Positions 2,218 through 56,076 of a stretch of DNA of 64,000 bases are shown here, in pieces. The notes beneath the pieces were generated by a model. It did not search any database and was not told the DNA's origin. It was given only the letters and a program-made list of their open reading frames with translations. Positions within the stretch are counted from its first letter, which is position 1. The number at the start of each line of letters is the position of its first letter. This DNA comes from Candidatus Nitricoxidivorans perseverans (GTDB lineage: Bacteria; Pseudomonadota; Gammaproteobacteria; Burkholderiales; Rhodocyclaceae): contig CP107246.1 of NCBI GenBank assembly GCA_030246985.1, positions 994,282-1,058,281 of the forward strand, in the 5' to 3' direction. A program made the translations under genes and the position numbers.

Positions 2218-2237
2218 TCAAAAATACTGATGGTCGG

Positions 2238-2243
2238 ATTATA
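2238..2243 (-). promoter_or_regulatory. adk: Probable -10 element for adk-pfp
   Basis: On the minus strand this is a perfect TATAAT in an AT-rich patch unusual for this GC-rich window, about 30 bases before the adk ATG. No strong -35 hexamer sits at the ideal distance, so the promoter may use an extended or activator-assisted form. It would let adk-pfp be transcribed apart from kdsB upstream. Confidence 0.45.
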
Positions 2244-2334
2244 TTACTTTATTTATGTCCGTTCGAGTGTCGCAAACATAAACCTATTCCGGACGATGGA
2301 TTAATGGATGTGCAAATGGCGGGATTTTGTTGCC

Positions 2335-3102
2335 TTATCCGCCTGCCGCGCACAGGATTTCCCGCACCCGTTCCAGGTCTTCCGGCGTATCGACCCCCGG
2401 CTCGGGCGGATGGTCGGATACCGCCACCCGGATGGCATGGCCGTGCCAGAGCACACGCAGCTGTTCCAGGGCTTCGACGCCCTCGATGGGCGAGGGCGCC
2501 AGCTTCCCGTAGCGGCGAAGGAATCCGGCCCGGTAGGCGTAGATGCCGATATGGCGCAGGGCGCCGAGGTTATCCGGCAGGCGCTCGCGGCCGGCGGCGA
2601 ATCCATCCCGGGCCCAGGGGATCGGCGCCCGGGAGAAGTAGAGGGCGCGGCCGGCGGCGTCGCAGACCACCTTGACCACGTTGGGGTTGAAGAAGTCGGC
2701 CGCCGAATCGATCGGATGGGCGGCGGTGGCAACGGCGGCGCCGGCATCCGCCCCGAGCGCCGCCGCCACGGCGTCGATGAGGGCCGGATCGATCAGCGGC
2801 TCGTCGCCCTGGACATTGACCACGATCTCGCCGTCGCCCCAGCCCAGGGCGTCCGCCACTTCGGCAATGCGGTCGGTGCCGCTGGCGTGACCCGCGCGAG
2901 TCATCACCGCGCGGTGGCCGTGCGCCTCGACGGCCGCGCGCACCCGCTCGTCGTCGGTGGCGACGCAGACATCGGCGGCGGCGCTCTTCAGGGCCGCATC
3001 GACGACGCGCACGACCATGGGCTTCCCCGCGATGTCGGCCAGCGGCTTGCCCGGCAGCCGCATGGATGCGTAGCGTGCCGGCACGACGACACGAAACGTC
3101 AC
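2335..3102 (-). CDS. kdsB: 3-deoxy-manno-octulosonate cytidylyltransferase (CMP-KDO synthetase)
   Basis: A 255-residue nucleotidyltransferase that activates KDO with CTP for lipopolysaccharide inner-core assembly. The opening [16 protein letters not shown] is the conserved nucleotide and Mg site; GHASGTDR and VQGDEP further on match the family. The start is GTG at 3100-3102, one base after the upstream Trm112 stop, so the two are translationally coupled. With lpxK upstream this forms a lipid A/KDO gene group. The length matches the family (about 250). Confidence 0.95.
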
Positions 3103-3103
3103 A

Positions 3104-3280
3104 TCAGTCTTCCTCAGCCGGCATCTGCCGCGCTTCGTCCACGAGCATGACCGGGATGTCGTCCTTGATCGGGAAGGCCAGCCGGCAAGGCTTGCAGATC
3201 AGCTCGGACTTTTCCCGGCGGTGGTCGAGCGGTCCCTTGCAGAGGGGGCAGACGAGGATTTCAAGCAGGCGGGCGTCCAT
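3104..3280 (-). CDS. Trm112-family small zinc-ribbon protein
   Basis: A 58-residue protein with two Cys-x2-Cys knuckles (C11/C14 and C29/C32), starting [14 protein letters not shown]. This is the Trm112/YcaR fold, usually found between lpxK and kdsB in proteobacteria, exactly as here. Trm112 proteins partner methyltransferases in eukaryotes and archaea; the bacterial role is unclear. Its ATG lies inside the end of lpxK (20-base overlap) and its stop falls one base before the kdsB GTG. Confidence 0.9.
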
Positions 3281-4193: not shown

Positions 4194-4606
4194 CAATTCT
4201 TCTGCTGGGTGGCGAAAGAGATGTGCGTCAGGCCCGACTGCTGGGCCGCCTGCATGACGTCGATGACGCTCTGGTGGGCCGCCTTGGCGTCGGCGTTGAT
4301 GATGACGACCGGCTCGCCCGCACCCGCGGCGCGCTTCATGGCGATACCGATGGCCTCGACCTCGCGCCCCGCCACCGGAACCTTGTTGACCAGCACCTCG
4401 CCCGCGGCGGTCACCACGACGTCGATCTCGTTGGGCCGTTCCTGCTGCGCCTGCGCGTCCGCCGTGGGCAGGTTGATCTCGAGGCCGGCGAACTTGGAAT
4501 AGGTGGTGGTGATCATCAGGAAGATCAGGATCACCAGCAGCACGTCGATCATCGGGATCAGGTTGATCTCCGGTTCCTCGCGGCCGCGGCCTTTCTGGAA
4601 TTTCAA
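4193..4606 (-). CDS. exbD: ExbD/TolR-family energy-transducing protein
   Basis: A 137-residue protein with one membrane helix (about residues 16-37) after a short charged cytoplasmic tail. The helix contains the functionally essential Asp (D21, in LIPMIDVLLVIL). The rest is a periplasmic domain. With ExbB it forms the proton-driven motor that powers TonB-dependent outer-membrane transport. The start is a TTG at 4604-4606 that overlaps the exbB stop, with GGAGA seven bases upstream. TolR would be the alternative, but the lpxK neighbourhood favours ExbD. Confidence 0.88.
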   Translation of the reverse strand: MKFQKGRGREEPEINLIPMIDVLLVILIFLMITTTYSKFAGLEINLPTADAQAQQERPNEIDVVVTAAGEVLVNKVPVAGREVEAIGIAMKRAAGAGEPVVIINADAKAAHQSVIDVMQAAQQSGLTHISFATQQKN

Positions 4607-5208
4607 ACCCGGTCTCCATGAACCAGCTCGACCAGCTTCACCGCCTGCTGCTCCATCTCGATGACGAAACCGTCGACCAGCGCGCGGAAGTGGCGGTAGA
4701 AAATCATCGCCGGAATCGCGATGAGCAGGCCGAAGCCGGTGTTGTAGAGCGCCACCGAAATGCCGTGCGCCAGCGCCTGCGGATTGTTGCCGGCGCCCGT
4801 GGCCGATCCGAAGATCTCGATCATGCCGACGATGGTGCCGAACAGCCCCATCAGCGGGCTGATGGAGGCGATGGTGCCCAGGCTTGTGAGGAAGCGCTCC
4901 AGCTCGTGGGCGACGCCGCCGCCCGCCTCCTCGATGGCCTCCCTCATCACGTCCCGCGAATTTCCAACGTTTCTCAGGCCGGCGGCAAAGACGCGGCCGA
5001 GCGGCGAATGGGCTTCGAGGCGCCGCAGCGATTCCGCCGTCACCCCCGACTGCTTGTAGTCGGCGACGACGCCGGCGAGCAGCCCCGCGGGGACGATCTT
5101 GGCGCGGCGCAGCGCGGTCGCGCGCTCGATGATCAGCGCCACCGCGATGACGGACGCCAGCAACAGGAACCAGATGGGCCAGCCGGCAGCCTGGATGATG
5201 GAAAACAC
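4603..5208 (-). CDS. exbB: ExbB/TolQ-family proton channel subunit
   Basis: A 201-residue membrane protein of the MotA/TolQ/ExbB family. Three hydrophobic segments are visible (about 10-30, 108-135 and 152-172). The conserved stretch SPLMGLFGTIVGMI and the closing GFGLLIAIPAMIFY are typical. It is the proton-conducting partner of ExbD. The start is GTG at 5206-5208. It is the first gene of the leftward operon; the short gap to the next rightward gene (75 bases) must hold both promoters. The tonB-like gene at 13.8 kb could be its output partner. Confidence 0.9.
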   Translation of the reverse strand: MFSIIQAAGWPIWFLLLASVIAVALIIERATALRRAKIVPAGLLAGVVADYKQSGVTAESLRRLEAHSPLGRVFAAGLRNVGNSRDVMREAIEEAGGGVAHELERFLTSLGTIASISPLMGLFGTIVGMIEIFGSATGAGNNPQALAHGISVALYNTGFGLLIAIPAMIFYRHFRALVDGFVIEMEQQAVKLVELVHGDRV

Positions 5209-5283
5209 GGCGACTCCCCGAATGACGGATAGGCGCGAACTCTACTACGAAATCAGGATTTCAGAGCAGGCTACAATCCCGTC

Positions 5284-6486
5284 ATGAGTGAAGTTCAGGA
5301 CACCGCCGCCGCCTTGGCCGCCGAGGCGCTGGCGGAGAATCGCAGCCTGTTGCTGATAGCGCCCGGCGACGACCTGTTGCCGGACATCTCGAACGCCCTC
5401 GCCCTCGACCTGCGCCCGCTCTGCCTCGTCCTGCCGGAAGCCGAGTATGTCCGCCGCATCGTCCTGCGCGCCACGCTCTCCCTGCTGAAAAGCCGGCTGA
5501 CGCGCTTCGGCGAGGATACCGAAGGCCCCGCGTGGGCCGCCCAGCGCAACCGCATCGCCGAACACGCGGAACTCTGGCGGGCCTGCCTCGCCTGGAGCGA
5601 GCGCGGCCTCGACCGGGAGCCCTGGCCCTCCGGCATCGAGCGGTTCTTCCCGGTGCGCATCCTGCCCCTGGCGCTCGCCCGCGCGCTTTCGCTGCCCTCG
5701 GATTCGGTCGTGATCCTGGGCGTCGGGGAGGAAACCGCCCCGACCGTGGCGCTGGCCGTCGCGGACGAGACCGTCCGGCTGCGCGCCGAGCTGGAAATGC
5801 TGGCCCAGGAGCTTTCGGAACTGGAGCTGGAACTGGCCACCGCCCAGGCCGAAATCGCCGACTTCACCCGTCGCTACCATGCCCTCGTCGGCATGCGCAT
5901 GGCTCGGCTGGACGGTCTCCAGGCCGAAATTGCCGACCGCCGGGCCGCCGAAACCGGCGAAGCGGAAGCCAGGCATGCCGCCGAAACCGCCCGCGCCCGC
6001 GCGGAGCGGTCGCGGCGCGAAAGCGAGCGTTTCGCCGAGGTGGAGCGGGACCCGGCCCGCCCCTTCCGCCCGACCGGCGATCTCAAGAAGCTCTACCGGC
6101 AACTGGCCCAGAAAATCCATCCGGATCGCGCCCGGGACGAAGCGGACCGCGCTTGGCGCACGCAGCTGATGTCGGAAGCCAATCGCGCCTACCGGGCCGG
6201 CGACGAGGTCGCCCTGCAGGAAGTGGTCGCCCTCTGGCAAGAGGGGCGGGAAGGCGCCGGCCGGCAGCGCCGTGACGATGCGAGCCCCGCCGACATCGCG
6301 ACGCAGGTGGCCCGCCTCAAGCGGCGCATCGGGGAAATCGAGGGCGAATTGAACCGGCTGTTCGGCTCCAGGCTCTATGAGCTCTTCACCGCCGCCAACA
6401 TGGCCAGGCGCGCCGGGCGCGACCTCCTCCAGGAAATGGCCGACAAGCTGGACGCCCAGATCGCCGCGGCGCAAGGGAAAATCTAA
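5284..6486 (+). CDS. Coiled-coil protein with C-terminal J-like domain
   Basis: A 400-residue protein not matched to a named family. Residues about 160-255 are a long, charged heptad-like coiled coil. Residues 265-312 look like a J-domain: LKKLYRQLAQKIHPDR carries the diagnostic HPD at 279-281. A second short coiled coil follows at the C-terminus (about 335-395). J-domains stimulate the ATPase of an Hsp70 such as DnaK, so this may be a client-specific co-chaperone. The first 150 residues show no recognisable motif. It faces the Sel1-repeat gene tail to tail with a 4-base overlap. No signal peptide is seen, so it is probably cytoplasmic. Confidence 0.75.
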   Translation: MSEVQDTAAALAAEALAENRSLLLIAPGDDLLPDISNALALDLRPLCLVLPEAEYVRRIVLRATLSLLKSRLTRFGEDTEGPAWAAQRNRIAEHAELWRACLAWSERGLDREPWPSGIERFFPVRILPLALARALSLPSDSVVILGVGEETAPTVALAVADETVRLRAELEMLAQELSELELELATAQAEIADFTRRYHALVGMRMARLDGLQAEIADRRAAETGEAEARHAAETARARAERSRRESERFAEVERDPARPFRPTGDLKKLYRQLAQKIHPDRARDEADRAWRTQLMSEANRAYRAGDEVALQEVVALWQEGREGAGRQRRDDASPADIATQVARLKRRIGEIEGELNRLFGSRLYELFTAANMARRAGRDLLQEMADKLDAQIAAAQGKI

Positions 6487-8240
6487 TTCAGCTTTCCGCT
6501 CCGCTCCACCCGTTCCAGGAACCCCCGCGCCTGCTCGTGGCCGAGCGAGGCGGCGGCGCGCAGCCACTTCATGGCCAGGCGCGGGCTCTTCGTCGGTCCG
6601 ACGCCCCGATAGTAGGCGCATCCCAGTTCGTACTGGGCGTCGGCCTCGCCCATGAGCGCCGCCTTCCGCAGCCAGCGCATGCCGGCGCGCGCGTCGCGGC
6701 GCGCGCCCTGGCCGTGCAGCAGACAGAAGCCGACGCTGTACGCGGCATAGGCGTCGTCGTGCTGCGCGACGGCCTGCTCGTACCAGCGCAGCGCCTCGCG
6801 GTAATTGCGTTCGACGCCCCAGCCGAAGTAATACATGTCGGCCAGCGCGACCTTGGCGTCGAACAGGGAGGCCGCCTTGCGGAACCACAGCACGGCTTCC
6901 CCCAGGTCCCGCGCCACGCCGGCGCCATGGCGGTAGCACTCCCCCAGCATCAGGGCCGCCTGGCGATGGCCCAGCTCCCCGGCCTTGCGGTAGCAGGCGG
7001 CGGCGCGAGCCATCGCCCCGCCGTGGAAATGGCGCTCCCCCTCCGCGAACCAGTAGCGCTCCAGCTCTCCCAGGGCGGGCTGCCAGCCGCCTTCGGCAGC
7101 CGCGCGCAGCAATTCCTCGGCCCGGCGCGGATCGAACGGAAGGCCGATGCCGCGCAGATGGCAGCGGCCGAGCTCGGCCTGTCCATGGGCATCGCCGGCG
7201 GCCGCCGCGATGCGGTAGTGCTCGACGGCCTGGCCGGGACATTGCGCCACCCCTTCCCCGTACTCGTAGCATTCCCCGAGCCAGACGTGCCCCTGGGGAT
7301 CGCCCGCCTCCGCCGCGCGGCGGTACCAGGCCACGGCCAGCGACTTGTTCTCGGCGACGCCATCGCCCCAGCGATAGCAATGGCCGACCTTGAGCCGGGC
7401 TCGTCCGTGGCCCTGGCGCGCCGCCAGCCGCCACCAGCGCAGCGCCTCCGCCATGTCGTGGCCGGGATGGGCGCGTCCCGAGGCATAGGCCTCGCCGAGC
7501 TCGAAGGCCGCCTCCCGGCTCCCGCAGTCGGCGGCGCGGCGATACCAGCCGAGACCCGCCGCCCGGTCGCAGGTGACGCCCAGGCCGAAGGTGTAGCACT
7601 GGCCGAGGAGGAACATCGCGCCGCCGATGCGCTTCCTGGCCGCCGCGCGGAACCAGCCGACGGCTTCCGACCGGTCGGCCGCCAGCCCTTCGCCAGCATA
7701 GAGGCAAAGCCCCAGGCAGAACATGGCGCTGGCAACGCCATTCTCGGCCGCTTCGCGCCAGAGGCGCGCCGCAATGGCGCGGTCTTCGGGCACGCCGCGG
7801 CCGAAGAAGCGGCAGCGGGCGAGGATATCCGCCGCACGCGGCAGCCCCTGAGCCGCGGCACGCTCGAAAAGCCGGGCGGCCTCGGCGTAATCACGGGACA
7901 AGCCGAAACCATGATAGAGCAGCCAGCCCAGCACCGCCTCACCGGCGGCGCAACCGCGTTCGGCGCTTCTCGATGACCAGCGAACCGCCTGGGCATAGGA
8001 TTTCGAGGTTCCGTTCCCGATCGCGTGGCGCCATGCCAATTCGGCCTGGGCGGAAGGGTTTCCGCCCTCGGCCATGCGCTTCAAATCGCCCAGGGGCACG
8101 CCGCGCCAGAATTCGTCGGCCGGCCCCAGGAGATCGAGTCCCTGGACGGCGCCGCGCTCGACCAGGCTGCTCTCCAGCACCTCGCGGAAAAAGCCGAGGA
8201 GCGCCGGGGCGTGCAAGGGAACGAGCGGATTGGTCGTCAC
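6483..8240 (-). CDS. Sel1-like repeat (TPR-type) protein
   Basis: A 585-residue protein made almost entirely of about 13-14 tandem Sel1 repeats of 35-40 residues, recognisable by phrases such as AELAWRHAIGNG, GWLLYHGFGLSRDYAEAARLF and ALRWYEQAVAQHDDAYAAY. Sel1 repeats form superhelical scaffolds for protein-protein contacts. No secretion signal is seen at the start. It stands alone; the gene to its right (xseA) is divergent with only 14 bases between the two ATGs chosen. The partner is unknown. An even longer antisense frame across this region was judged a GC-driven shadow. Confidence 0.85.
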   Translation of the reverse strand: MTTNPLVPLHAPALLGFFREVLESSLVERGAVQGLDLLGPADEFWRGVPLGDLKRMAEGGNPSAQAELAWRHAIGNGTSKSYAQAVRWSSRSAERGCAAGEAVLGWLLYHGFGLSRDYAEAARLFERAAAQGLPRAADILARCRFFGRGVPEDRAIAARLWREAAENGVASAMFCLGLCLYAGEGLAADRSEAVGWFRAAARKRIGGAMFLLGQCYTFGLGVTCDRAAGLGWYRRAADCGSREAAFELGEAYASGRAHPGHDMAEALRWWRLAARQGHGRARLKVGHCYRWGDGVAENKSLAVAWYRRAAEAGDPQGHVWLGECYEYGEGVAQCPGQAVEHYRIAAAAGDAHGQAELGRCHLRGIGLPFDPRRAEELLRAAAEGGWQPALGELERYWFAEGERHFHGGAMARAAACYRKAGELGHRQAALMLGECYRHGAGVARDLGEAVLWFRKAASLFDAKVALADMYYFGWGVERNYREALRWYEQAVAQHDDAYAAYSVGFCLLHGQGARRDARAGMRWLRKAALMGEADAQYELGCAYYRGVGPTKSPRLAMKWLRAAASLGHEQARGFLERVERSGKLN

Positions 8241-8254
8241 GGGAGGGCGGCAGG

Positions 8255-9568
8255 ATGGATCGGGCGTCCCAGACTAGCATCGAGTCGTCCATTGTGGATG
8301 ATGATGTAGAATCGATTCGTCCCGCGCGCGCTCAGCTTGTCCGCGCCCACTCTTCCCGTTTCCCGCGCCCTGCCGTGCTTCCGGAAATCCTGACCATCAC
8401 GGAGCTCAATCGACTGGCCCGATCCGCCCTCGAACAGCGTTTCCCGCTGCTTTGGGTGACGGGAGAGATTTCGAACCTGATCCGCGCGGCCTCCGGCCAT
8501 TTTTACTTCAGCCTCAAGGACGAAAACGCCCAGGTGCGCTGCGCCATGTTCCGGGCGCGCGCCCAGGCGCTTCCCTGGCGCGTCGAGAATGGCCAACAGG
8601 TCGAGGCGCGCGCCCTGGTCACGCTCTACGAGGCTCGCGGCGACTTCCAACTCAACGTCGAAACGCTGCGCCGCGCCGGTCTCGGCCGCCTCTACGAGGC
8701 CTTCCTGCAACTGCGGGAGAAGCTTTCGCGCGAAGGGCTGTTCGACGACGCGCGAAAACGGGACCTGCCCCGCTTTCCGCGCGTCGTGGGCATCGTCACC
8801 TCGCCGCGGGCCGCCGCCCTGCGCGACGTCTTCGCCGCCTTCGCGCGGCGCGCGCCGCATGTGCCCCTGATCGTCTATCCGACGCTCGTACAAGGCTCGG
8901 ACGCGGCCGGGCAGATCGCCGCCGCCCTCTCGGCGGCCGGCGGCAGAAACGAATGCGACCTGCTGCTGCTGGTGCGCGGCGGCGGCAGCCTGGAAGACTT
9001 GTGGTCCTTCAACGAGGAGGCCGTGGCCCGCGCCATCGCCGCCTGCCCGCTCCCTGTCGTTTCCGGCGTCGGCCATGAAACCGACGTCACCATCGCCGAC
9101 CTCGCCGCCGACCGGCGCGCCGCCACCCCTACCGCCGCGGCCGAACTCGCCAGCGCCGGATGGTTCGCCGTCGCGCGGGAAACCGCCGGCATCGGCGCCA
9201 CGCTGCGCGCGGCCCTGCGTTCGAAACTGGAAAAGCGGATGCAGGCCCTCGACCTCCTGGCCCGCCGACTGGTCCATCCCGCGCAGCGGCTGGCCGGCGC
9301 GAGGCAGCAACTCGGACACCTGGCGACGCGCCTGACCGCCGCCTGCGAACGCCGCCTGCAACGGCAATCCGGCCGCCTCGAGCGCCTGGCCGCGGGAATC
9401 TCGGCGCTCAATCCGCAGGCCGTCCTCGCGCGCGGCTATGCCATCGCCCGCGATGCGCGGGGGCGCGTCGTGCGGGACAGCCGCCAGATCGCAACCGATG
9501 AAACCCTGTCCCTGCGCTTCGCCAAGGGCGGCGGCGAGGCAGTTGTCACACGGACATTTCCCGACTAA
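8255..9568 (+). CDS. xseA: Exodeoxyribonuclease VII large subunit
   Basis: The large subunit of the exonuclease that degrades single-stranded DNA from both ends, acting with XseB (not in this window). From ATG 8255 it has 437 residues, close to the family norm. An N-terminal OB-fold (LLWVTGEISN, SGHFYFSLKDENAQVRCAMF) is followed by the catalytic domain (VVGIVTSPRAAALRDV, LLVRGGGSLEDLWSFNEE, SGVGHETDVTIADLAADRRA) and a C-terminal helical region. GGGAGGGCGGCAGG precedes the chosen ATG. An in-frame GTG at 8375 also gives a plausible short form. Its last codons contain the sodB promoter. Confidence 0.93.
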   Translation: MDRASQTSIESSIVDDDVESIRPARAQLVRAHSSRFPRPAVLPEILTITELNRLARSALEQRFPLLWVTGEISNLIRAASGHFYFSLKDENAQVRCAMFRARAQALPWRVENGQQVEARALVTLYEARGDFQLNVETLRRAGLGRLYEAFLQLREKLSREGLFDDARKRDLPRFPRVVGIVTSPRAAALRDVFAAFARRAPHVPLIVYPTLVQGSDAAGQIAAALSAAGGRNECDLLLLVRGGGSLEDLWSFNEEAVARAIAACPLPVVSGVGHETDVTIADLAADRRAATPTAAAELASAGWFAVARETAGIGATLRAALRSKLEKRMQALDLLARRLVHPAQRLAGARQQLGHLATRLTAACERRLQRQSGRLERLAAGISALNPQAVLARGYAIARDARGRVVRDSRQIATDETLSLRFAKGGGEAVVTRTFPD

Positions 9569-20529: not shown

Positions 20530-20553
<24 letters not shown>

Positions 20554-20622
20554 CGGCGCCGACTCGAAATCGGATGGTTCGCGAAAGCGGGCACGTGGGT
20601 TCGAATCCCACCCTCTCCGCCA
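20530..20622 (+). tRNA. tRNA-Ser, anticodon CGA
   Basis: The acceptor stem GGAGAGG pairs with CCTCTCC, followed by discriminator G and an encoded CCA (20620-20622). A D-arm, the anticodon CGA (20565-20567) in a 7-base loop, a long variable arm as required for serine tRNAs, and a TTCGAAT T-loop are all visible. The tRNA reads UCG codons. Its first 24 bases are also the last codons of ygiQ. The length of 93 including CCA is normal for the class. Confidence 0.95.
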
Positions 20623-51374: not shown

Positions 51375-52805
51375 TCAGCCGAACCGGAATTCTTCCTGGC
51401 GAAACAGGCGGAGGCAGGCGTCGACCACGTCGGCGTCGTAGTAACGGCCGCGATTCGCCTCGATCTCCCCGAGCGCCGCTTCGACGCCCAGGCCGGGGCG
51501 GTAGGGCCGATAGAGGGCGATCGCCTCGACCACGTCGGCGACCGTGATGATGCGAGCGCCCAGGATGATCTGGTCGCCCCGCAATCCTCGCGGATAGCCC
51601 GAGCCATCGAGGTGTTCGTGGTGCTGGTAGACCATCTCCGCCACAGGCCAGGGGAAGTCCACGTTCTTGAGGATGTCGTAGCCCACCTGCGAATGCTGGC
51701 GGATCAGGGAAAATTCGATGTCCGGCAAACGTCCGGGATAGCTGAGAATCTCCGCCGGCACGTGGATTTTGCCGATGTCGTGGATCGAGGCCGTCAGGCG
51801 GATGCCATGGATGGCGTCGTCCGGCAGCCCCAGCGCGGCCGCCAGCCGCGCCGCCAGCTCGGCCACGTGGCGCTGGTGGCCGGCGGTGTAGGGGTCGCGC
51901 TTCTCGATGGTGGCCGCAACCGCCTGGATGGCGTCCTCCATGCTCTTGTTGAGGCGCAGCAGGGTGCGCCGGCTCTCCTCCTGCAGGCGCACCTGCTCGC
52001 TGATGTCCTGGAGCGCGCCATCCCATACCCGCCCCCCCTCCTCCCCTGTCGCCGCCATGGCATTGGCCAGAAGGTGGCGCAGCGTGCCGTCTGCAGATGT
52101 CCAGCGCAGGGCCTGGTGCAGCCGCGCGCCCCGCTCCCCGGCCGCCAGCGCGGCCGCCAGGGCTTGGCGATCCTCGGCGGCGAGGCCTCCGAACAGATGG
52201 TTGGCATCCGCCACCAGGGCGTCGGGCGGCAGGCCCAGCACCGCCCTGGTGCCGCCGCTGGCGTAGGCGAAGCGCCAGCCGCCGTCCGGTCCCGGCAGCA
52301 GCTGGAACAGCAATTCCGGGACATTGTCGGCCATGCTGACGAAGCGGTGCTGGGAGGCGATGCGGTCCAACGTGGATTCGATCAGCCCTGCCAGGGCCAG
52401 GTAAAGATCGAGCTGTTCCCGCTCCAGCGGAGCCGCGCCCCGGTGGGCCGCCAGCATCACATAGCCGGTGCGGCGCCGTTCGCGCCCCAGGGGCAGCAGC
52501 ACGGCGCCGTGAGGCTCGGGCAACGAAAGTACCTCGCTGGCGAGGAAGCCGCTCTCGAACACGGCGGCGGCGATGTCTGCCGCAACGGCGGCCAGTTGTT
52601 CGCAGGCCGGCTGGCTATGGATGAAGCGCACCCGGCCGTCGGCCTCCCGCACGGCGAAGGCGGCCAGGTCGGCGCCGAAGAATTTGCAGACCAGCCGGCC
52701 CAGTTGCGGCCACAGGTCGTCGTAGGAAACGATGCCGGCCAGGTACTGCGCCGAGCGGACGACCGCATCGACAGGGCTGGCGGGGAGCATGCGGGATTCG
52801 TTCAT
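51375..52805 (-). CDS. GAF-PAS-HD-GYP protein, probable c-di-GMP phosphodiesterase
   Basis: A 476-residue cytoplasmic regulator. Domains in order: GAF-like (about 25-145), PAS (about 160-275) and HD-GYP (about 285-470). The HD metal site is in ASIHDIGKIHVPAEI, and the full HHEHLDGSGYPRGLRGDQI region is intact, so it should hydrolyse c-di-GMP. It has no membrane helix. It begins 3 bases after the corrinoid activator gene and closes a four-gene operon, an unusual place for such an enzyme. Confidence 0.9.
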   Translation of the reverse strand: MNESRMLPASPVDAVVRSAQYLAGIVSYDDLWPQLGRLVCKFFGADLAAFAVREADGRVRFIHSQPACEQLAAVAADIAAAVFESGFLASEVLSLPEPHGAVLLPLGRERRRTGYVMLAAHRGAAPLEREQLDLYLALAGLIESTLDRIASQHRFVSMADNVPELLFQLLPGPDGGWRFAYASGGTRAVLGLPPDALVADANHLFGGLAAEDRQALAAALAAGERGARLHQALRWTSADGTLRHLLANAMAATGEEGGRVWDGALQDISEQVRLQEESRRTLLRLNKSMEDAIQAVAATIEKRDPYTAGHQRHVAELAARLAAALGLPDDAIHGIRLTASIHDIGKIHVPAEILSYPGRLPDIEFSLIRQHSQVGYDILKNVDFPWPVAEMVYQHHEHLDGSGYPRGLRGDQIILGARIITVADVVEAIALYRPYRPGLGVEAALGEIEANRGRYYDADVVDACLRLFRQEEFRFG

Positions 52806-52808
52806 GGC

Positions 52809-54410
52809 TCAGGACACCATGGGTTGGAGATAGAGATTTTCGAGGAAGGCCTCGTCGAAGCCCGGCTCCCGCGCAAGGTTGACCAATCGCGCTCCGGCGC
52901 GGCAGCGTGCCGCCTCTTCCCGAGCCCGCCGAGACAACAGCAGGCCCACCGCGCCGGCCAGTGCCGTATTGCCGGCCAGTTCGACCCGGTCGGCCGCCAC
53001 GTCCGGAAGCAAACCTATGGCCTGCGCGTTGGCCACGTCGAGATAGCGCCCGAACAACCCGGCCGCCACCACTCGTCGCAGATCCGCCGAGGCGACGCCC
53101 GCCCGGGAACACAGCACGGCGATGCCCGCCCCGATTGCTCCCTTGGCCCGTTGCAACGCGTCCACGTCGCGCCAGTCGAGGGACAGGGTCTGGTCGCCGG
53201 CGCTCAGCGGGTAGCTTGCCTCGCCGCCGGAGAACTTGCCCGTGGCCGTGAGCGTGCCGGCCCGGCGCAGTCCCGCCACCAGGTCCACCAGACCGGAACC
53301 GCAAAGGCCGCGCGCCCTGTCGCCGGCGAGGATGGCGCAGGCGGGGCGGCCGGCGCCGTCGAAGGTCACGCGGTAGACCGCTCCGGGTTCGGCCGGCATC
53401 CCGGCCCGGCCCGGCCCGGTTTCGAAGGCCGGGCCGCCAGCGGCGGCGGTTACCCAGAGTTGCTCGCCCGTCCACAAGGCAATCTCGGAGTTGGTGCCGA
53501 AGTCGATGAAGGCGGCCGGAGCCCGTCCTTCGGTCAGGCGGGTGGCCACCAGCCCGGCCAGGAGGTCGGAGCCGACGAAGCCGCCCAGCGGCGGCTCCGC
53601 CTCGATGTCGGCTTCCGCCGCGATGCCCCAGTCCGACGCCCAGGCGGCGTCCGCCGGAGCGCAATCCAGCGGACGGGTCCACTGGGACGGCTGCAACAAC
53701 AACTGGTGATTGCGACCCGCCAGCAAAGCCAGCATGGCCGTGTTGCCGACGATGGCGACGCGGCCGATGCGGTGCAAATCAAGCCCCTCGCGCGCTCCCA
53801 CGTCGGCCAGCGCCGCGCCGATGGCTTCGCGCACCGCGGCAGCCAGGCGGGCCGCCACCGCCGGGTCCTCCGCCGCCACGAGCCGGGTCACGACGTCGGC
53901 GCCGTAGCGGCCCTGGGGATTGCGACCGAAGCGCAGCGCCAGCGGCCGGCCCGACGACAAATCGGAAACGGCGATCGTCAGATGGCTGGTTCCCACATCC
54001 ACGGCAACGCCCAGGGGATGCGCGATGCCCGACGGCAATGCCCGGTCGGAAGCCGGCGACAGGGCGGCGGCGGAAATCAGTCCGGCCGGCGGCACATGCC
54101 AATCCGACGGCGCCGCCAGGCTCAGCAGTTCCACCGTCGCGTCGCCGCCCGGGCGGCATTGGCAAGCCAGGCGCAGGCCCTCGGCCAGAGGCGCGTCGCC
54201 GAGTTGGAGCCACTCCGCCGGCGTGATCGGACCGCCGTCGCCGGCCAGCCAGCGGACGCGGCACAGGCCGCAGGCGCCGAGACCGGGACAAGCGGAGCGG
54301 ACGCGGTAATCCGTGGCGTCGAGAATATCCCGGAGGGAGGGCCCCGGGTCGAACGTCAGGCGGTGGCACTTGCCATCGAACAGCGCGGTGATCACCGGCA
54401 CGGCCGTCAT
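52809..54410 (-). CDS. Corrinoid activation ATPase with N-terminal [2Fe-2S] domain (RACo/RamA-like, DUF4445)
   Basis: A 533-residue protein. The N-terminal ferredoxin domain has C41, C47, C50 and C83 or C85 (SACPGLGACGLC, then CQC) for a [2Fe-2S] cluster. The ASKHA ATPase part (about 130-533, GVAVDVGTSHLTIAV, AFIDFGTNSEIAL, GLCGSGLVDLVAG) is DUF4445. Such proteins reduce inactive Co(II) corrinoid to Co(I) at the cost of ATP. The ATG overlaps the methyltransferase stop (ATGA). Its likely client is the corrinoid protein two genes upstream. Confidence 0.9.
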   Translation of the reverse strand: MTAVPVITALFDGKCHRLTFDPGPSLRDILDATDYRVRSACPGLGACGLCRVRWLAGDGGPITPAEWLQLGDAPLAEGLRLACQCRPGGDATVELLSLAAPSDWHVPPAGLISAAALSPASDRALPSGIAHPLGVAVDVGTSHLTIAVSDLSSGRPLALRFGRNPQGRYGADVVTRLVAAEDPAVAARLAAAVREAIGAALADVGAREGLDLHRIGRVAIVGNTAMLALLAGRNHQLLLQPSQWTRPLDCAPADAAWASDWGIAAEADIEAEPPLGGFVGSDLLAGLVATRLTEGRAPAAFIDFGTNSEIALWTGEQLWVTAAAGGPAFETGPGRAGMPAEPGAVYRVTFDGAGRPACAILAGDRARGLCGSGLVDLVAGLRRAGTLTATGKFSGGEASYPLSAGDQTLSLDWRDVDALQRAKGAIGAGIAVLCSRAGVASADLRRVVAAGLFGRYLDVANAQAIGLLPDVAADRVELAGNTALAGAVGLLLSRRAREEAARCRAGARLVNLAREPGFDEAFLENLYLQPMVS

Positions 54411-55417
54411 CCCGCCGCCGCGGCCTCCGCCAGGGCGGCCAGGTTGGATGCATCCGCCTCCGGCGGAATCTCGCATCCGGAGGACAGGATGAACCCGCCG
54501 CGGTCGGCGAAAGCGTCCATCAATCCCCGGGCGCGGGCCGCCAGCGCCGTCGGCGCCGGATCGAGGAAGTCGAGCGATTTCAGGTTGCCGGCCAGGCAGG
54601 TCCCGGGCAGCAGGCGCCGGGCCGCGGCCGCATCCACGTAGTAGTCGAAGGTGGCGATGTCGGCGCCGATCTCCGGATAATGCGGCAGGATGTCTCCCGT
54701 CGGGCCGGCGATGTTGAGCCAGGTCAGCACCGCCCCGGCCGCGCGCAACCCAGTCATGAGGCGCGTCAGTCGCGGGCGAAGCAACTCCCGGAAGAACGCC
54801 GCCGGCACCACGGCGCCCGATGCCGCCGGATCGAACACCACGACGCCATGAGCGCCCGTGGCCAGTATCGCAGCTCCGTAACGAAGCGCCACGCCCACGG
54901 CCAGGTCAAGGGCCGCCTCGAAGCGGCGGTGGTCGTCCGCCGCCAGGTAGAGCGCGATCTCGGTTCCATAGAGCTGGGTCGCCAGAGTCATCGGGCCGGC
55001 CACGGCGCCGGCAACGAGGACGGTATCGCCGAGGGTGCGCCGCAACAGGCTCACGGCGCGCAGCATTTCCGGCATCCGGCCGTCGCGCGCCGGGTCCGGC
55101 GGTTCCAGCGCGGATGCATCGTCCCCCGGCGCCAGGATATATTCGACGACATCCGGATACTGGCGTTCGTAGTACTTGAGGCGCGACCCCAGGGCCTCGG
55201 TCTCCACGCCGAAATCCATGAAAGCGAACACCGCGTCGCCGCCGTAGCGCCCTCGTTCCCGCAACTGGCATTCCGCCAGCAATTTCCCGTCGCGCACATA
55301 AGCGTCGATGCCCACGCCGGCGGCCGCGGCGGCGTGACCGAACAACAGGGGTGCGAAGGGAACGCGGTCGGTCGGCTGGAATCGCGCCGCGGCGAGGATG
55401 CGATCGAGGCCGTTCAT
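54407..55417 (-). CDS. Uroporphyrinogen decarboxylase-family corrinoid methyltransferase
   Basis: A 336-residue UroD-fold protein. RILAAARFQPTDRVPFAPL opens, with GAVAGPMTLATQLYG, and the C-terminal stretch LSSGCEIPPEADASN holds the Cys-x-zinc region of MtaA/MtbA-type methyltransferases, whereas heme-pathway HemE lacks this. It should move a methyl between a corrinoid protein and a small acceptor or donor. Substrate is unknown; betaproteobacteria lack the coenzyme M used by archaeal relatives. It overlaps the corrinoid gene by 4 bases. Confidence 0.85.
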   Translation of the reverse strand: MNGLDRILAAARFQPTDRVPFAPLLFGHAAAAAGVGIDAYVRDGKLLAECQLRERGRYGGDAVFAFMDFGVETEALGSRLKYYERQYPDVVEYILAPGDDASALEPPDPARDGRMPEMLRAVSLLRRTLGDTVLVAGAVAGPMTLATQLYGTEIALYLAADDHRRFEAALDLAVGVALRYGAAILATGAHGVVVFDPAASGAVVPAAFFRELLRPRLTRLMTGLRAAGAVLTWLNIAGPTGDILPHYPEIGADIATFDYYVDAAAARRLLPGTCLAGNLKSLDFLDPAPTALAARARGLMDAFADRGGFILSSGCEIPPEADASNLAALAEAAAAG

Positions 55418-56076
55418 GGCTGGACCTCCGGCACCGCCAGGCTGTCGAGATAACGCGCGCCGTCGAAAGCGGTTTCGGCCACGTAATCGACGTTCAACTC
55501 GTCCGGCGCCAATTGCTTGAGGGCGGCGCCGCCGGCCACCACTTCCACGCCGTCGAGGCCGCGGGCGCGGAGCGCGCCGCGTATTCGCCGCACCTGCGGC
55601 ACGATCGTGCTGATGAGTCCGCTGACCAGCACCGCCCGTGCATGCTCCCGTTCCGCCGCCGCCACCAGGGCATCCAGCGGGCAGTCGCGGCCGATATCCA
55701 CCACGCGGTAACCCTTGCCGATAAGAACCATTCGGACGATGTTCTTGCCGAGGTCATGAACGTCTCCTTCGAGGGTGGCGATCACGAAGGTCGCCCTGCC
55801 GCGCTTCGGCGGCAGGCCCTCCGGGTACAACTCGCGGATGACCACCGAGACGGCGCGGCCTACCAGCATGATCTCCAACAGATTGAACTGCTCGATGGTG
55901 CATTTGTCGTCGAGCCTGCCCATGGCCGCCTCGAGCCCGTCGGTAACGATGCGCTCGGCGCCGACTCCCGCCTCACGCAGCCGGCGCGTTTCCGCCAGGG
56001 CGGCGGCATGGTCGCCGGCCAGCAGGGTATCGATCAGCGGCCGAAAGTCGACGACGGAAACGGTATTGCCAACCAT
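55414..56076 (-). CDS. Corrinoid (B12-binding) methyltransferase protein
   Basis: A 220-residue protein of the MtbC/MttC type. N-terminal helical cap (about 1-90, [29 protein letters not shown]) followed by a B12-binding Rossmann domain with D105-x-H107-x2-G110 ([14 protein letters not shown]), the lower-ligand His. It carries the methyl on cobalt between two methyltransferases. It is the first gene of the four-gene operon. The ATG at 56074-56076 was chosen from the usual cap start; a longer frame upstream has no family match. Confidence 0.92.

Follow-up and report, generated by a model that had tools for sequence, protein, structure and literature searches.

Why should the last gene of a corrinoid methyl-transfer operon encode a predicted HD-GYP phosphodiesterase? 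This question is raised by a 64,000-nucleotide stretch of the genome of Candidatus Nitricoxidivorans perseverans (Rhodocyclaceae; contig CP107246.1, positions 994,282 to 1,058,281; hereafter the window), in which open reading frames and Pfam place four minus-strand genes at 56076-51375 that encode, in this order, a corrinoid protein, a URO-D protein, a RACo activator and an HD-GYP protein (Table 1). That they form one tight operon, as the initial annotation stated, is borne out by the coordinates, with overlaps of 4 and 4 bases followed by a 3-base gap. Since one flank holds a convergent gene that we take to be lpxH-like and the other a divergent, presumably recQ-like gene (both named from reading their translations), the operon consists of exactly these four genes. 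We put at about even the chance that it is a self-contained signalling unit, with a corrinoid methyl-transfer module as its input and the HD-GYP protein as its output.

Loci related to this operon were grouped into classes that we name A, B and C and that are defined by the URO-D clades of a phylogenetic tree. Scanning genome contigs with the window URO-D protein gave eight loci, seven of them at 60-75% identity, and a search of the family found a close relative in 3 of 249 genomes, the window's own included. The class A set comprises nine distinct loci (the window, L019 and L033-L039), L020 having been dropped as a presumed duplicate of L038. All nine have the order corrinoid protein, URO-D, RACo and HD-GYP, although L034 is partial and begins inside the corrinoid gene at a contig end; the spacings range from -13 to +13 bases, and the HD-GYP proteins are 53 to 78% identical to that of the window. 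Four genomic contexts can be distinguished within 10 kb, namely the window, the group L019/L033/L036/L038, the group L034/L035/L039 (two Dechloromonas and one unclassified genome) and L037 (Thiohalomonas). Flanking genes are common within a context and look unrelated between contexts: lpxH and recQ in the window, topoisomerase, BacA and RNB genes at L019, genes for a DnaJ-domain protein and a NiFe hydrogenase at L039, and for a beta-lactamase-fold protein and MtrB/PioB at L037. Ten flanking proteins scanned at L019, L036, L037 and L039 were housekeeping, respiratory or unrelated. The same order at every locus in four unrelated contexts implies that the HD-GYP gene is an integral member of the operon, in agreement with the earlier reading, and this order, together with a total of just five HD_5 matches in the 2.7 Mb genome, indicates that the arrangement is not due to chance. 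Pairwise distances for every two of the four proteins are also correlated (r 0.905 to 0.977 over eight of the nine loci, L034 being omitted for its partial gene). The class A cassette is rare and patchy, and wider sampling returned the window's own genome only (1/369 genomes in the taxonomic class and 1/398 in the phylum), with no new case. L038 carries an additional HD-GYP gene (8059-9270) immediately ahead of its corrinoid gene and in the same orientation, encoding 403 aa with 34% identity to the window HD-GYP protein; apart from the duplicate L020, no other class A locus was seen to have one.

The output side of the operon appears to be intact. Residues H310, H342, D343, K346, H371, H395, H396, D424 and G403-Y404-P405 of the HD-GYP motif, for some of which we assume metal-ligand roles, are invariant in all nine class A proteins, so the site is not degenerate and that part of the initial annotation stands. 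Within the GYP signature, H395, H396, E397 and G401-S402-G403-Y404-P405 are likewise invariant, and D400 is replaced by Asn in L037. The nearest solved HD-GYP relatives are a 3'3'-cyclic GMP-AMP phosphodiesterase (5z7c, 1.8e-37) and DvhD (9rc0, 5e-37; 9rbz is bound to bis-(3'-5')-cyclic dimeric guanosine monophosphate, c-di-GMP), suggesting that c-di-GMP or a related cyclic dinucleotide is the likely substrate of the predicted phosphodiesterase. The GAF and PAS domains that had been proposed for its N-terminal part are partly recovered: GAF-like and PAS-like folds can be recognized in the structural model, whereas in Pfam PAS_3 stays below its cut-off and GAF gives no hit.

On the input side, the corrinoid protein is of the MtbC type, having a B12-binding domain (Pfam E-value 4.4e-17) with D-x-H-x-x-G, which we take to be the cobalt-ligand motif, and carrying S-x-L and G-G besides D-V-H-D-L-G. 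Its B12-binding_2 cap scores 22.8 bits against a cut-off of 23, and the protein reaches 92.8 bits with TIGR02370, below the cut-off of 215.3; the URO-D and RACo proteins are under the curated NCBIfam cut-offs as well. An alternative upstream TTG start would lengthen the corrinoid protein to 247 aa. The activator has Fer2, Raco_middle and RACo_C_ter domains, all over their Pfam cut-offs (4.1e-60 for RACo_C_ter), and matches the solved RACo 3zyy with an E-value of 8.7e-54. The Pfam E-values of the two remaining proteins are 1.7e-58 (URO-D) and 5.2e-37 (HD_5).

The URO-D protein belongs structurally with MtaA. Its model (mean predicted local distance difference test score, pLDDT, 94.7) has MtaA 4ay8 as the closest solved fold (Z 43.5, root-mean-square deviation 1.7, 325 residues aligned), a HemE being second (Z 38.3). 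Its best NCBIfam model is TIGR01463 (133.9 bits, below the cut-off of 235.4), and with 56.3 bits against the 302.95 demanded by TIGR01464 it is not HemE by score; a far stronger URO-D match at 1.63 Mb of the same genome is presumably the cellular HemE. The H-x-C...C residues of MtaA, which we take to be zinc ligands, read N-x-A...C in all nine class A proteins, two of the three positions thus being lost. We also looked for E-x14-E-x20-H, a zinc motif of O-demethylases, and found no match in any of 65 URO-D rows.

These features could be combined in the following way. Reduction of the cobalt in the MtbC-like protein back to Co(I) would be driven by RACo at the expense of ATP. The URO-D protein, its MtaA thiol-zinc site dismantled, would either present the cobalt with a small molecule that is methylated or otherwise alkylating, or do no more than bind the corrinoid protein. 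Whichever state results, whether Co(I), Co(II), alkyl-Co or the complex itself, would set the activity of the HD-GYP protein, which in turn would lower c-di-GMP or a related cyclic dinucleotide. Sensing by the module, the nature of its ligand, its physical contact or coupling with the HD-GYP protein and the sign of the c-di-GMP response are parts of this model that we infer.

Table 1. Features of the four-gene operon (positions in the window)
Feature	Position	Strand	Remarks
MtbC-like corrinoid protein (B12-binding_2 + B12-binding; D-x-H-x-x-G, S-x-L, G-G)	55414..56076	-	220 aa from ATG
D105-V-H-D-L-G110, presumed cobalt-ligand motif of the corrinoid protein	55747..55764	-	six letters identical in nine class A proteins
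URO-D protein with MtaA fold; presumably acts with the corrinoid protein	54407..55417	-	336 aa; Pfam, NCBIfam, model, fold match
N235, first MtaA zinc-ligand position (His in MtaA)	54713..54715	-	comparison with MtaA
A237, second MtaA zinc-ligand position (Cys in MtaA)	54707..54709	-	comparison with MtaA
C315, sole retained MtaA zinc-ligand position	54473..54475	-	comparison with MtaA
RACo/RamA-like ATP-dependent reductive activator (Fer2, Raco_middle, RACo_C_ter)	52809..54410	-	533 aa; Pfam, NCBIfam, match to solved RACo
Predicted HD-GYP phosphodiesterase, N-terminal part GAF-like and PAS-like; proposed output of the cassette	51375..52805	-	476 aa; Pfam HD_5, motifs, model
GAF-like domain, approximately residues 31-150	52356..52715	-	our reading of the secondary-structure order in the AlphaFold2 model; no Pfam hit
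PAS-like domain, approximately residues 160-267	52005..52328	-	PAS_3 below cut-off; model; PAS/LOV structures among fold matches
HD doublet H342-D343	51777..51782	-	invariant in 9/9
HHEHLDGSGYPRGL, residues 395-408, GYP signature	51582..51623	-	alignment of nine class A proteins

Distant URO-D matches from the family search led to classes B and C, which lie outside the window. With L026 as query, 18 matches were found in 15 of 249 genomes of the family (11 class B and 7 class C) and 15 matches in 13 of 321 genomes of the taxonomic class (7 in class B and 3 in class C, plus 3 presumed HemE, 1 MtaA-type and 1 own); the class C query L070 gave 19 matches in 16 of 349 genomes of the phylum (10 class C and 9 class B). 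Domains were assigned by Pfam in selected proteins; the segments so identified served to build profiles, which were then applied to every locus. Class B (26 loci with 27 URO-D rows) combines a corrinoid protein and a URO-D protein with a fusion of DUF1638 to a histidine kinase, usually accompanied by receiver/kinase hybrids and, at some loci, by REC-GGDEF-EAL, REC-GGDEF or REC-HD-GYP proteins nearby. A same-strand signalling gene or a fusion is present at 23 of the 26 loci, and our profiles detect DUF1638 fused to a histidine-kinase ATPase at 21. When ten of the fusions were examined with Pfam, HATPase was found in all ten, DUF1638 at E<=0.001 in nine (three of them below the cut-off, L125 having none), and HisKA at or over the cut-off in six and below it in three (none in L123). 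Most of the 20 class C loci have RACo, corrinoid, URO-D and DUF1638 proteins, usually followed by large hybrid kinases, and a signalling neighbor is present at 15 of them by a distance rule; upstream at L069-L071 are periplasmic binding proteins or domains and sensor kinases. Among same-strand genes within 1.5 kb, 8/12, 42/59 and 19/33 carry a signalling domain in classes A, B and C, respectively; beyond 5 kb the figures are 0/12, 12/42 and 7/39 (0/44, 15/82 and 7/66 with both strands counted). All 56 URO-D rows of the three classes lack at least two zinc-ligand positions, the reading for classes B and C being based on a gapped loop alignment. As controls with an intact H-x-C...C we had five MtaA-type rows from two loci (L040, with four proteins, and L135), neither of which has signalling genes.

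Several individual loci add to this picture of classes B and C. At L027 (class C) an ETR1_N (ethylene-receptor-like)-PAS-GGDEF-EAL protein (4290-7229) is encoded directly upstream of the RACo-corrinoid-URO-D set, and a hemerythrin-PAS-GAF hybrid kinase downstream. Peripla_BP_4 or phosphonate-type binding proteins occur near class C or B modules and sensor kinases at L069 (12841-13791), L070 (4254-5189) and L066 (14207-15052, on the opposite strand); such proteins may point to an extracellular ligand. Near the class B module of L025, an HD-GYP gene (2231-3241) is split over two reading frames, perhaps by a frameshift.

In Phaeobacter, B12-dependent methionine synthesis requires both DUF1638 and RACo-like (DUF4445) proteins; a part in B12 reactivation was considered likely for the two, but no specific role was assigned to DUF1638 (PMC5764234). 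In light of these data, a DUF1638-kinase fusion encoded beside a corrinoid protein appears to link maintenance of the corrinoid and a kinase within a single polypeptide, and we regard it as the strongest hint that signalling proteins read these modules. Because related modules elsewhere adjoin kinases and c-di-GMP enzymes, the view of methyl metabolism with an added regulator, as offered by the initial annotation, is in our judgement less supported than a signalling module. More broadly, we tentatively propose, at somewhat short of an even chance, that proteobacteria possess a widespread class of sensors that take their input from a corrinoid methyl-transfer module capable of reactivation and pass the cobalt state on to c-di-GMP enzymes (class A) or histidine kinases (classes B and C). 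In such a class, methyl transfer by URO-D proteins with degenerate zinc sites and by corrinoid proteins, with RACo or DUF1638 for reactivation, would serve to read the environment and not to feed the cell.

Several observations weigh against a signalling role. The AlphaFold2 model of the HD-GYP protein is good in its N-terminal part and poor in the HD part, much of which has pLDDT under 50, so the fold search says little on the latter, and we know of no corrinoid-protein-binding domain in HD-GYP proteins. The presence of RACo and the kept D-x-H-x-x-G suggest real methyl chemistry, which equally fits catabolism. As regards classes B and C, the profiles were derived from proteins of the same loci, and kinases are also common farther off in class B (the 12/42 beyond 5 kb). 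Three of the 26 class B loci (L118, L119 and L132), each against a contig end, have no signalling neighbor. The five class C misses include L072 at a contig end, L112 and L116 with hybrid kinases 3 to 4 kb away, L134 with an abutting kinase hidden by a mis-extended frame, and L133 with none seen in 20 kb. The contrast between intact and degenerate zinc sites is thin because only two intact-zinc loci were available, and enlarging this control set reached a single genome. Finally, in the tree of 65 URO-D rows, classes A, B and C each fall on one side of a branch with 100% bootstrap, B and C group together (97/94), and A groups weakly with MtaA-type proteins (87/62, with long branches). Given this separation, the signalling link may have arisen at least twice, and the evidence from B and C may be parallel to class A and not the same invention.

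Among the alternatives, a catabolic or salvage methyltransferase system survives best, though we consider it unlikely. The URO-D protein would then act like CmuA or MecE as a first methyltransferase, moving a methyl group from some substrate onto the corrinoid protein, this group would pass to folate by an enzyme encoded elsewhere, and the HD-GYP protein would merely adjust lifestyle when the substrate is present. A dedicated MtaB/MttB-type enzyme, which the initial annotation expected of such sets, was too strong an expectation: CmuA and MecE are themselves URO-D-type first methyltransferases, so a separate enzyme is not obligatory; besides its URO-D protein, the mec cassette encodes a two-component system and a corrinoid protein, joined in other strains by presumed corrinoid-reactivation proteins (PMC9768040). 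RACo, moreover, implies a Co(I) catalytic cycle, and the window's genome encodes a MetH with a pterin-binding domain. Nevertheless, the operon contains no acceptor enzyme, transporter or catabolic gene: none of its four genes encodes a transporter, a methyltransferase II (MTII) or a DNA-binding regulator, and Pfam finds no pterin-binding or response-regulator protein among them. Nor do the flanking proteins scanned add any of these, the NiFe hydrogenase found in the context of L039 being the one exception. The genome (listed as 100% complete) has no match to MttB or MtmB (PF05369), in line with the substrate methyltransferase having been reported absent, MtaB and dimethylamine-type enzymes not having been searched. 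Its other four B12-binding matches are MetH and three radical S-adenosylmethionine (SAM) proteins; hence no paralogous corrinoid cluster was found that this corrinoid protein might serve, as the initial annotation had allowed for. The lost zinc-ligand positions and the recurrence of signalling partners with other URO-D clades also speak against catabolism.

A second explanation, which we hold to be improbable, is that the four genes share a condition without being coupled, the N-terminal domains of the HD-GYP protein themselves detecting a ligand or the redox state, and co-transcription reflecting no more than use of both parts in the same, perhaps anoxic, state. The GAF-like and PAS-like folds predicted ahead of its HD-GYP domain would suit this, but it accounts poorly for an exact four-gene cassette that recurs, closely spaced, in four contexts and whose protein distances are correlated, or for the class B kinase ATPases fused to DUF1638. 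A cobalamin photoreceptor, in which light splits an alkyl-cobalt bond and switches the HD-GYP protein as in photocobilin-diguanylate cyclases, has a published precedent for light control of c-di-GMP via B12 (PMC10979010) and, among PDB sequences matched by the corrinoid protein, the photocobilins 8j2w (E 1.8e-06) and 8j2y (E 0.00039), but it is very improbable, as it leaves RACo and the URO-D partner unexplained and as the published light signature comprises GxxW, EH, GxxH and GxxxP (PMC11796333), of which GxxW is absent from a protein without tryptophan (an EH pair stands at residue 144; GxxH and GxxxP were unscored).

In an Rfam search at gathering score, no cobalamin riboswitch was matched in the window, L033, L036, L037 or L039 (five of the nine class A loci). 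The sole match within the window was a tRNA gene at 20530-20619.

If the operon is indeed a signalling unit, corrinoid chemistry would have a sensory role distinct from photoreception by adenosylcobalamin (AdoCbl), and many URO-D/corrinoid pairs, perhaps now annotated as methyltransferases or uroporphyrinogen decarboxylases, would be signal receptors. The class A cassette and the class B DUF1638-kinase fusions offer a concrete test set, and the cassette is also a minimal system of four proteins amenable to reconstitution in vitro. Even if the operon is catabolic, the coupling of methyl transfer to a built-in c-di-GMP-type enzyme would, by the literature searched, be new: in open-access papers, most subscription papers being outside the search, we found no description of a corrinoid/URO-D/RACo module linked to HD-GYP. 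The earlier statement that no such coupling had been described therefore holds for methyl transfer and does not hold for light, for which a link between cobalamin and a c-di-GMP enzyme has been published (PMC10979010).

Known systems resemble the operon in different parts, and to judge from the reports consulted, neither the mec cassette nor MsmS and RdmS nor the photocobilins combine its set of genes. The photocobilin-diguanylate cyclase AbDPcob and CarH-type receptors have in common with the model proposed for it that the state of cobalamin governs a c-di-GMP enzyme, but they rely on AdoCbl and bilin photochemistry in one fused protein, the available text describing no URO-D or RACo (PMC10979010), and the window protein misses GxxW. 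The estrogen-methylating EmtABCD system of a denitrifying bacterium, to which the initial annotation had likened the UroD protein, likewise includes a corrinoid protein, and a gene for a RACE-like activator lies close by; we reject the analogy, as EmtA is MtmB-related and not a UroD protein, with SAM as the methyl donor (PMC7448270), and the window's genome has no PF05369 match. In Methanosarcina, MsmS and RdmS are methyltransferase-associated PAS/GAF sensor kinases tied to methyl-sulfide metabolism, but they are atypical kinases regulating methyl-sulfide genes, and in the available parts of the reports no HD-GYP is involved and the corrinoid module is not proposed as the sensor (PMC6944256, PMC11784639). 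The MtaA/CmuA family shares the fold, the best-scoring model TIGR01463 and a corrinoid protein encoded alongside, whereas the window protein stays under the cut-off of that model and has N-x-A...C instead of H-x-C...C. The mec cassette of dichloromethane fermenters likewise has a URO-D-type (MtaA/CmuA) methyltransferase, a corrinoid protein and a two-component sensor, with mecGH reactivation genes in other strains, but it serves dichloromethane catabolism, on which substrate its abundance rises, and it further includes an MTII, a cation transporter and a two-component system that acts on transcription and has a PocR sensor (PMC9768040); the window operon has no MTII, transporter or DNA-binding regulator, and its output is an HD-GYP protein.

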